Of a stretch of 40,878 nucleotides of DNA, positions 13,923 to 16,717 are shown in pieces. The notes beneath the pieces were generated by a model, which was not told the DNA's origin, made no database searches, and was given only the letters and a program-made list of their open reading frames with translations. Source of the stretch: a virus; the IMG/VR virus record IMGVR_UViG_3300034072_001941, positions 1-40,878 of that record; one strand, written 5' to 3'. How positions within the stretch are numbered: the first letter of the stretch is position 1; every line of letters starts with the position of its first letter. Both the position numbers and the translations under genes were made by a program.

Positions 13923-15635
13923 ATGGACAACGAACCCAATCAACCGGCCGCTGAAACGTTGGCCCGGGCGGCGGAGCTTGACCGCAAACTGTCCGAGTTG
14001 GCGGCGAAAACGGAGACGGTCTTCGATGTCAACGATCCCGTGGAGGTGATCGCCCGGAGCGTGGGCGAGGTCTTCCGGCCGCGCCGGGAGCTGTTTTTCC
14101 GCACGTCGGACCGGACGGTGGTGGCGCGGGGTGCGGATGGCCAATGGGAGCCGATGGACCAAACGTGGGCCGTCACGTATTTCCCGGAACACGGGGTGAA
14201 GTGGACCAAGGGCAAGCGCAAGGCGAACCTGAAGCAGCAAATGGCCGCGGAAATCCTTCGGGCCACCGCCTTCCGGGACGCTCTTCCGAAGCTGAACGGG
14301 GTGAACCCGGTCCGGCTCCCGGTGGTGTCGGAAGACCTGGACGAAAGGGGTTTCGCGAAGCGGAAGGGGTTCGGCAAGATCCGGCTGTTGCCGATCGGCT
14401 ACGACGAGGAAACAGGGATTTGGACGGAAGATGGGATCGATTACCCGGAGGACATTCATTCGGACGATGCGGTGGAGTGGTTTGATCGGCTCTACAAGTA
14501 TTTCGATTGGACGGATCCGAACCGCCAAGCGGTGCAAATGGCTGCCTGTCTGTCCGTTTACATGCGGGAGATGTTCGATGGCCGGCCCCCGATTTTCGTG
14601 TGGAACTCGAACATTCCCGGGTCTGGCAAGTCTCGCCTGGCGGAGATGATCGGCCGGATGATCTTTGGGGCGTGCGAGTCCATGACGTTGGACCAAATCA
14701 ACCGGCGGGAGTTGGAGCAACTCCTCCACACGTGCGCCTTGAATGACGAAAAAATCGTCTGGTTTGATGACGTGGAAGGCAAGCTCTACGCGTCCGAACT
14801 CCGGCAATGGGCCACGGCGAAGTCTCGCGGGGGCCGGGCGTTCCACTCCCAAAAGAAGTTTTACGTGGACCGGGTCCGGAGTGCCACGTTTGTGACCGGC
14901 ACTCACCTGAAGATCGACGAACACCTCGAACGTCGGTCTCTCTACGTCGACCTGTTCCCGGTCCTCGAAGCGAAAAACCGTCGTCTCCCGGCCGATGCCA
15001 TGGAGATCACGGACGAATGGCTGGACGATCCCGAAAACCGGTCCCGGTTCCTAGGTTGCCTCTGGGCGCTCGTCCGGAGGTGGGACGAGGCAAATCGCCC
15101 CCTTGGTCCACGCCCGAAGTTGGCCTCGTTCGAGGGTTGGTCCCGGATGGTCCCGGGCGCCGTGGCATGCGCGGGCTTTGGCGATTGCCTGGCGCCGTTT
15201 GAGGCTCCGGACGCCGGTGGCCTCGATACGTCCGAAGCCAAGCAGCTAGTGGAAGCGCTGATCAAGCACCACGCCAAGGAGTTCGACGGCAAGGGCTACG
15301 CGGACGCTCTGGACGTGATCGCGGAAGCGCGGAAACATCGGCTTTTCGTCCACGTCCTGGGAGACGTGGATCTGATCGTCCAAGACTTGGACCGCAACCC
15401 GCGGTGGCGTTGGGTGGCCAACGCGGACGGGGAAGAACTTACGATGGGGCAAAAGCTCCGGCAAGCGGCTCGATACCGGGACGCGGCCATTGATTCGAAG
15501 TGGGGCAAGCTGTGGAATCGACTCGCCTGCCAAGGCCGGACCTTCGTGGTGGACGGCCGGGCCTTTTCGTTTGGGCGCCGGGATGATACCCGGACGAAGC
15601 GTTATGACATTGTGGAGGTGGAGTTACCGGGATGA
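13923..15635 (+). CDS. Replicative helicase-like ATPase
   Basis: A 570-residue P-loop ATPase. Walker A is in NSNIPGSGKSRLAE (228-241), Walker B is KIVWFDDVEG (277-286), a sensor-like TFVTGTHLK is at 322-330, and an Arg pair (ERRSL, 336-340) could be the finger. This order fits the AAA+/superfamily 3-like helicases that follow AEP primases in phages and plasmids. The N-terminal 200 residues are probably a DNA-binding or loading region; the C-terminal region (about 430-570) may be winged-helix. No Shine-Dalgarno sequence is visible before ATG 13923. Confidence 0.8.
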   Translation: MDNEPNQPAAETLARAAELDRKLSELAAKTETVFDVNDPVEVIARSVGEVFRPRRELFFRTSDRTVVARGADGQWEPMDQTWAVTYFPEHGVKWTKGKRKANLKQQMAAEILRATAFRDALPKLNGVNPVRLPVVSEDLDERGFAKRKGFGKIRLLPIGYDEETGIWTEDGIDYPEDIHSDDAVEWFDRLYKYFDWTDPNRQAVQMAACLSVYMREMFDGRPPIFVWNSNIPGSGKSRLAEMIGRMIFGACESMTLDQINRRELEQLLHTCALNDEKIVWFDDVEGKLYASELRQWATAKSRGGRAFHSQKKFYVDRVRSATFVTGTHLKIDEHLERRSLYVDLFPVLEAKNRRLPADAMEITDEWLDDPENRSRFLGCLWALVRRWDEANRPLGPRPKLASFEGWSRMVPGAVACAGFGDCLAPFEAPDAGGLDTSEAKQLVEALIKHHAKEFDGKGYADALDVIAEARKHRLFVHVLGDVDLIVQDLDRNPRWRWVANADGEELTMGQKLRQAARYRDAAIDSKWGKLWNRLACQGRTFVVDGRAFSFGRRDDTRTKRYDIVEVELPG

Positions 15636-16507
15636 CTGGAAAGGAAGGATTGAATGAGTTGGCATTGTTCGCAGGCGCTGGTGGCGGAATTCTTGGCGGA
15701 AAACTCCTCGGGTGGAGAACCGTCTGTGCCGTCGAAATCGATGGCTATTGTCGGAAAGTCCTCATGCAAAGGCAAGACGACGGAATCCTTGAACCATTCC
15801 CGGTCTGGGACGATGTCCGAACCTTTGACGGAAGACCGTGGCTCGGCATTGTTGACGTGGTTTCTGGCGGGTTTCCGTGTCAGGACATCTCCGCCGCGGG
15901 GAAAGGCGCCGGGATCGGAGGGGAACGAAGTGGGCTGTGGGGAGAAATGGCGCGAATTATCGGTGAAGTTCGACCGCGTTTCGCGTTCGTGGAAAACTCA
16001 CCGTTGCTTGTGGGAAGAGGACTTAGTCGAGTCCTCGCTGATCTTGCCGCGATGGGGTATGATGCGCGGTGGGGTGTTGTGGGAGCGGTCCACGCCGGCG
16101 CACCTCACAAGCGGGAAAGAATTTGGATTGTGGCCAACGATTCGGAGTTCCGACGGAGAGAGGGGCGGACGCGGGGACCTCACCCCTCGGGCGTCTGCAA
16201 ACGAAAATCGGCAAACCAAACTAACGCCATCCCAAAAAAAAGGGAAGCACGGGCTGAGTCTGTGCGCGGCGGTAAATCTGTTTGCAACCCCGATCGCCAG
16301 AGATTGGAAGAGTGGAAAAGCATCGCAAAAAACTATGGAGAAGAATTCACGCCCCCTTTCGGAACAAATTGGTGGGATGTTGAACCCGAAGTGGGTCGAG
16401 TGGTTGATGGGGTGGCCTCTCGGGTGGACCGATTGCGAGCGCTTGGGAATGGACAAGTTCCCGCAGTGGTTGCGCTCGCATGGAGAATGTTAGGCGGCGG
16501 CGCTTAA
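15632..16507 (+). CDS. DNA (cytosine-5) methyltransferase
   Basis: A 291-residue Dcm-family enzyme. Motif I is ALFAGAGGGILGG (11-23), motif II ends in EID, motif IV is GGFPCQDIS with catalytic Cys83, motif VI ENS (121-123), motif VIII RERIWIVA (161-168), and motif X-like GNGQVPAVVALAW near the end. The target-recognition part between motif VIII and IX is short and polar. It probably protects phage DNA against host restriction. It starts within the helicase stop (ATGA). A second frame inside this gene is also coding-like (15654-16493). It ends 18 bases inside the convergent XRE gene. Confidence 0.9.
   Translation: MTGKEGLNELALFAGAGGGILGGKLLGWRTVCAVEIDGYCRKVLMQRQDDGILEPFPVWDDVRTFDGRPWLGIVDVVSGGFPCQDISAAGKGAGIGGERSGLWGEMARIIGEVRPRFAFVENSPLLVGRGLSRVLADLAAMGYDARWGVVGAVHAGAPHKRERIWIVANDSEFRRREGRTRGPHPSGVCKRKSANQTNAIPKKREARAESVRGGKSVCNPDRQRLEEWKSIAKNYGEEFTPPFGTNWWDVEPEVGRVVDGVASRVDRLRALGNGQVPAVVALAWRMLGGGA
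15654..16493 (+). CDS. Overlapping-frame protein inside the methyltransferase gene
   Basis: A 279-residue frame, shifted one base relative to the methyltransferase and almost fully inside it. It starts MSWHCSQALVAEF, continues with WKTHRCLWEE, LPRWGMMRGG, FATPIARDWKSG and PLSEQIGG, and ends with NPKWVEWLMGWPLGWT and DKFPQWLRSHGEC. I know this order from many phage proteins that lie in the alternative frame of Dcm-type genes. AAGGAAGGA sits five to eight bases before its ATG. Between methyltransferase motifs VIII and IX this frame keeps the more family-like sequence, which suggests selection on it. Function unknown; whether it is made is unproven. Confidence 0.6.
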   Translation: MSWHCSQALVAEFLAENSSGGEPSVPSKSMAIVGKSSCKGKTTESLNHSRSGTMSEPLTEDRGSALLTWFLAGFRVRTSPPRGKAPGSEGNEVGCGEKWRELSVKFDRVSRSWKTHRCLWEEDLVESSLILPRWGMMRGGVLWERSTPAHLTSGKEFGLWPTIRSSDGERGGRGDLTPRASANENRQTKLTPSQKKGKHGLSLCAAVNLFATPIARDWKSGKASQKTMEKNSRPLSEQIGGMLNPKWVEWLMGWPLGWTDCERLGMDKFPQWLRSHGEC

Positions 16508-16717
16508 CATTTCCTCCAGCTTGATCCGGGCCGGTTTGTAGCGGCGGGCCAACCGGAGAAATTCAAACGCTAGCGCGGCCGTTCGCGGGAATGGCCGCTT
16601 TAAGCGGCCGTTTTCCCATGTCGAAACCGTTTTGGTGGTCACGTCCAGTAACGTGGCCAATTGACGTTGGGTGAGGTTGAGTTCTGCACGAATTTTCTGC
16701 ACTTCTTGACCTGTCAT
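16490..16717 (-). CDS. XRE-family HTH regulator
   Basis: A 75-residue protein on the minus strand, with the start at the ATG preceding TGQEVQKIRAEL. The HTH is clear: LTQRQLATLLDVTTKTVSTW then ENGRLKRP. The C-terminal helix (TAALAFEFLRLARRYKP) probably dimerises. It converges with the methyltransferase gene and diverges from the membrane-protein gene, so it may control either. It could be a second repressor, or a regulator of the methyltransferase as in control proteins of restriction-modification systems. Confidence 0.85.
   Translation of the reverse strand: MTGQEVQKIRAELNLTQRQLATLLDVTTKTVSTWENGRLKRPFPRTAALAFEFLRLARRYKPARIKLEEMLSAAA

Follow-up and report, generated by a model that had tools for sequence, protein, structure and literature searches.

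The window analyzed here is a 40,878-nt stretch of viral DNA (IMG/VR record IMGVR_UViG_3300034072_001941, positions 1 to 40,878). Its gene content is that of a temperate tailed phage, with an integrase, a ParB-like protein, a primase-like protein, terminase, portal, head protease, and head protein all recognizable. Our subject is a C5-cytosine DNA methyltransferase gene in the window and a second open reading frame (ORF) that lies inside it, shifted by +1 relative to the methyltransferase frame (frame 0). A first-pass annotation, made from the letters alone, had proposed that two proteins are encoded by this one stretch. Both ORFs are present where it placed them, and the following features define the locus (TRD, target-recognition domain):

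15632-16507, + strand: frame-0 ORF (alpha), 291 aa; C5-cytosine methyltransferase catalytic subunit with motifs I-VIII and X
15654-16493, + strand: +1-frame ORF (beta), 279 aa, wholly within alpha; proposed TRD and motif IX (small-domain) subunit
15641-15649, + strand: AAGGAAGGA, Shine-Dalgarno-like, read directly; 4 nt upstream of the +1 ATG and proposed to serve the staggered starts
15650-15656, + strand: staggered start pair TTG-A-ATG, with the frame-0 candidate TTG at 15650 and the +1 ATG at 15654

The frame-0 protein matches PF00145 (E = 1e-30, residues 11-192) and phrog_363 (E = 5e-70). It has the M.HhaI fold, with a profile match limited to M.HhaI residues 11-175 and ending at motif VIII, and it carries the catalytic features of a C5-methyltransferase, i.e., motifs I, IV (PCQ), VI (EN), and VIII, with C83, E121, N122, and R163 invariant in the family. 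The +1 protein matches no Pfam family. It does match phrog_1008 (E = 1.2e-18), phrog_26627 (E = 2e-12), and also phrog_35493. The recurrent phage family that the first-pass annotation had named exists: it is phrog_1008, the profile of which is matched by 110 of 110 aligned +1 members, and the end motif LNPxWVEWLMGWPxGWT is nearly invariant in relatives.

The ribosome site that had been claimed for the shifted frame is likewise there (AAGGAAGGA), and purine-rich sequence occurs here in many relatives. The candidate frame-0 start is ATG 15632 or, going by where the start lies in most relatives, TTG 15650. In most relatives the frame-0 start is exactly 4 nt upstream of the +1 start (ATGAATGAG), and the four bases preceding the +1 ATG (144 relatives) are ATGA in 74, GTGA in 25, TTGA in 14, and TTAA in 19. 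The +1 ATG is formed by the frame-0 codons AAT GAR and is kept in all 71 scored relatives. The asparagine codon at this point is AAT in 71/71, versus 77 of the 202 asparagine codons elsewhere in that part of the gene.

The open +1 frame among relatives

Taken by itself, the window gene is unremarkable, given that its +1 core is open in 11.5% of synonymous shuffles. The test set comprises relatives found by the methyltransferase frame only (loci L087-L166; 72 non-redundant). The +1 core is wholly open in 70 of the 72, versus 0.43 expected from synonymous shuffles, as the idea of two proteins from one stretch would have it. The sole two with a stop in the core (L108 and L127) have one each, which may reflect either sequencing error or loss. 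Over motifs I-VIII alone, the +1 frame is open in 62 of 63 relatives (2.8 expected). Across the segment between motifs VIII and IX it is frame 0 that is stop-free, in 62 of 62 relatives (3.5 expected), being kept open because motif X must be reached. Amino-acid identity in the +1 frame is 0.47, compared with 0.29 in shuffles, a null that ignores shared descent.

The synonymous-shuffle null is imperfectly calibrated, as the N-terminal part of control enzymes contains 1.76 +1 stops, versus 6.57 in shuffles. For this reason, we gave more weight to a codon-position test that has a control (see below). There is a second complication, which is that +1 similarity is partly forced, as conserved motifs read in +1 yield recurrent words (e.g., LGYDAEW becomes SGMTRNG). 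Because the conserved catalytic motifs account for part of the similarity in this way, +1 profile matches in distant methyltransferases were left out as independent evidence. Judged by its conservation among relatives, the +1 frame is a real gene.

Selection along the gene

For the codon-position test, we took 41 independent pairs and sorted their substitutions by codon position in frame 0. Because the wobble base of a +1 codon falls at frame-0 position 1, coding in one frame should give the reverse of the pattern expected from coding in the other. The substitution rates at frame-0 positions 1, 2, and 3 are 0.078/0.034/0.195 in motifs I-VIII, the frame-0 pattern, and 0.318/0.110/0.090 in the VIII-IX segment, the +1 pattern. 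The contrast is consistent from pair to pair. In motifs I-VI position 3 exceeds position 1 in 41/41 pairs, and in the VIII-IX segment the +1 wobble pattern is seen in 40/40, with a bootstrap 95% interval of 3.1-4.7 for the ratio of position 1 to position 3. Along the gene, the segments are as follows:

15653-16012, + strand: motifs I-VI; frame 0 constrained, +1 merely kept open; log2(pos3/pos1) +0.5 to +2.8
16013-16147, + strand: motifs VI-VIII; both frames constrained (+1 EEDLVESSLILPRWGMMRGGVLWERSTPAHLTSGKEFGLWPT); log2(pos3/pos1) -0.3 to +0.4
16148-16417, + strand: VIII-IX segment; +1 constrained (TRD and first part of motif IX; includes NPKWVEWLMGWP); log2(pos3/pos1) -1.8 to -2.6
16421-16462, + strand: frame-0 motif X region RVDRLRALGNGQVP; frame 0 constrained again; log2(pos3/pos1) +1.4; G272 and N273 invariant in the family

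In frame 0, the VIII-IX segment is an open but unconserved linker. Among divergent pairs compared by BLASTP over this segment (>30 bits), the +1 sequences match in 574 of 3083 cases and the frame-0 sequences in 16 of 3083. The first-pass annotation had held that this variable region fits the shifted frame better than the methyltransferase frame, and indeed it has the +1 coding signature and not that of the methyltransferase. The selection analysis that had been suggested as a check therefore finds purifying selection on the shifted frame, with the methyltransferase accounted for, in VIII-IX (the 40/40 pairs above), and the claim survives it.

Other sets of genes can be compared with this pattern. 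In the window family, genes next to the overlap have a normal wobble excess (rates 0.135/0.072/0.294, a ratio of 2.2), versus a ratio of about 1.1 for the overlap as a whole. In the control, ordinary C5-methyltransferases of Streptococcus phages (L346-L425), the +1 frame is open in 0 of 54 and the frame-0 pattern holds throughout. Relatives in bacterial genomes (L168-L247) have the inversion as in the window family. Starting from Pseudomonas phage Haboob (L255), we also found a distant phage class (L285-L345) with an open +1 frame and an inversion after motif VIII, in this case from only six pairs. Overall, the substitution patterns show that both frames are maintained by selection, which switches from one to the other along the gene.

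The +1 VIII-IX segment ranges from 34 to 122 codons in the test set, with xTP-containing units that vary in number (mean 2.3) and may be recognition modules. At the far end of the locus, a convergent gene for a 75-aa helix-turn-helix regulator (16490-16717, - strand) has its 3' end overlapping the end of the methyltransferase ORF.

A proposed single enzyme in two frames, and the alternatives

In C5-methyltransferases, the large domain consists of motifs I-VIII and part of X, and the small domain of motif IX and the TRD (PMC5944983). Given this make-up, the frame boundary falls on the domain boundary. Neither the substitution pattern nor the structure model shows a conserved TRD and motif IX of its own between motifs VIII and X of the frame-0 protein. 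In that model, most of the motif I-VIII part has a predicted local distance difference test score (pLDDT) of at least 90, and the helix of motif X (residues 276-286) is also confident. However, residues ~187-270, where the TRD would be expected, are disordered (204-270 fall below pLDDT 50).

The segment that is absent from frame 0 has a counterpart in +1. Profile comparison shows that the C-terminal half of the +1 protein (PTP-rich, TRD-IX) is homologous to what lies between motifs VIII and X in actinophage C5-methyltransferases (probability 97.7, E = 1.4e-12), in which a PTP-rich TRD is followed by LNxxFxEWMMxxPxGW. Within this half lies the proposed motif IX:

16380-16430, + strand: +1 motif LNPKWVEWLMGWPLGWT, proposed motif IX; profile match to residues just upstream of motif X in actinophage methyltransferases (probability 96.2, E = 2.6e-9)

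We consider it very probable that the two overlapping frames of the locus encode the two subunits of a single C5-cytosine DNA methyltransferase, a catalytic alpha and a beta that holds the TRD and motif IX. Going beyond what the first-pass annotation had claimed, we propose that the +1 protein supplies the target-recognition part that alpha lacks. Alpha (frame 0) would be the large catalytic domain, with motifs I-VIII, the unconserved linker, and motif X. Beta, the start of which is 4 nt after that of alpha in most relatives, would be the small, DNA-reading domain. Both would be translated from one message via the neighboring starts and would assemble in trans into an active enzyme, as do the split enzymes M.AquI and M.EcoHK31I. 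We infer translation, assembly of the heterodimer, and a role for beta as specificity subunit, and the enzyme would presumably serve to modify phage DNA, for example against host restriction.

Split C5-methyltransferases are known already. M.EcoHK31I (YGGCCR) has motifs I-VIII and X on one polypeptide and IX on another; M.AquI (CYCGRG) is divided between polypeptides that assemble in trans, one with the catalytic motifs and another with motif IX; and M.SssI has been split artificially (PMC3404938). Comparing layouts by description, the window alpha, with I-VIII and X, resembles the large polypeptide of M.EcoHK31I, and the small window protein probably carries motif IX, as judged via the actinophage profile match (probability 96.2). 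The small polypeptide (beta) of M.EcoHK31I is reportedly encoded out of frame inside the gene for the large one. M.AquI differs in that its motif X is in the small subunit, whereas the window has motif X in frame 0 and one ORF wholly inside the other.

Phages offer further arrangements. In Gordonia phage Leonard, unlike in the window, the TRD-IX region shares a single frame with the catalytic motifs. Mycobacteriophage Miramae (genes 79/78) differs in having two partly overlapping ORFs, with motif X in the second. In this type (L252 and L266-L282), a few hundred nucleotides at the 3' end of the first ORF are shared with the second, which is in +1 and holds the PTP-rich region, IX, and X. Two adjacent DNA methylase genes are listed in many mycobacteriophage records. 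In Paenibacillus larvae phage Diva, as in the window, there is a +1 ORF within a C5-methyltransferase gene, annotated by the depositors as an “internal gene” (gp50 in gp49), although with no function or link to target recognition given.

Several observations weigh against a division of one enzyme between the frames. Modeled alone, the +1 protein gives a poor structure (mean pLDDT 57.7), and it has no convincing match among solved structures. A direct profile match of its motif IX region to the classical motif IX of Streptococcus-phage enzymes is not significant; the link runs via the actinophage enzymes, for which the connection to classical IX-X is weak (E = 0.02), and PTP-rich sequence could inflate the profile scores. 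Also, the predicted TRD of M.EcoHK31I is in the larger subunit (PMC3404938), whereas the TRD-like segment in the window is in the small (+1) protein.

The alternative that survives best, though we regard it as quite unlikely, is that the +1 protein is real yet independent of the methyltransferase, such as an anti-restriction or regulatory protein that happens to share its DNA. It has a conserved start of its own as well as a conserved N-terminal part, and an independent protein would require no functional link between the frames. However, the constrained +1 segment is exactly what the frame-0 enzyme is without, and its homologues are TRD-IX segments of methyltransferases. Among 257 loci (a sample biased to overlaps), no +1 relative occurs without a methyltransferase in the companion frame.

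A ribosomal +1 shift after motif VIII, which would give a fusion of I-VIII to TRD-IX and leave the separate +1 start unused, might be favored by the mycobacteriophage-type layout, with its overlap confined to the 3' half of the first ORF, as frameshifting would need, and by the weak constraint on +1 over motifs I-VI. We doubt it strongly and judge it less likely, given that the +1 frame stays open from the 5' end and has its start there: a shift has no need of an open upstream +1 frame (62/63 relatives) or of the +1 ATG (71/71), and its product would end in +1 without motif X. Finally, that the +1 frame is an unexpressed by-product of methyltransferase constraint and codon usage is extremely improbable, despite the partly forced similarity and the frequency (11.5%) with which a single gene is open by chance, given that the +1 wobble pattern in VIII-IX (40/40 pairs) occurs where frame 0 is unconserved and the control enzymes do not have it.

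Spread and meaning of the overlap

A division of the enzyme between two frames would not be peculiar to the window. At least 598 relatives were found in one search, and there are others in bacterial genomes and a Leptospira plasmid, which indicates that hundreds of phages and prophages retain the arrangement, generally under the annotation of a single gene. Both phrog_363 (frame 0) and phrog_1008 (+1) are labeled simply as DNA methyltransferase, with the division of labor unrecorded there. A cyanobacterial locus resembles the window in how its frames are partitioned. In plasmid pAQ5 of Picosynechococcus sp. PCC 7002 (L426:1316-2530), a C5-methyltransferase gene (1420-2232) has a +1 ORF that is open over its whole length and beyond, and that holds a motif IX-like stretch, FSPEAMAMYMGFP. 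The inversion in the distant phage class, along with the similar-looking pAQ5 locus, suggests that the arrangement is old or has arisen repeatedly.

Among the papers searched, none describes an overlapping-frame methyltransferase arrangement in phages. What is new relative to the known split enzymes is the evidence that the overprinted part is the recognition domain, the switch of selection along the gene, and the spread of the arrangement. On balance, we lean toward the view that many of the C5-methyltransferases in phages and prophages, a large share of them, are obligate heterodimers in which the domain boundary is also the reading-frame boundary. The catalytic domain would be in one frame and the recognition domain overprinted in +1, opposite a stretch that is mere linker in the catalytic frame, which would leave specificity free to change there. 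If this is true, hundreds of phage methyltransferase genes are annotated with half of the enzyme missing, and work that relies on the annotated protein only, such as specificity prediction or cloning, could fail. The locus is also a clear natural case of selection moving between frames at a protein-domain boundary, useful for studying the origin of overlapping genes and of split enzymes.
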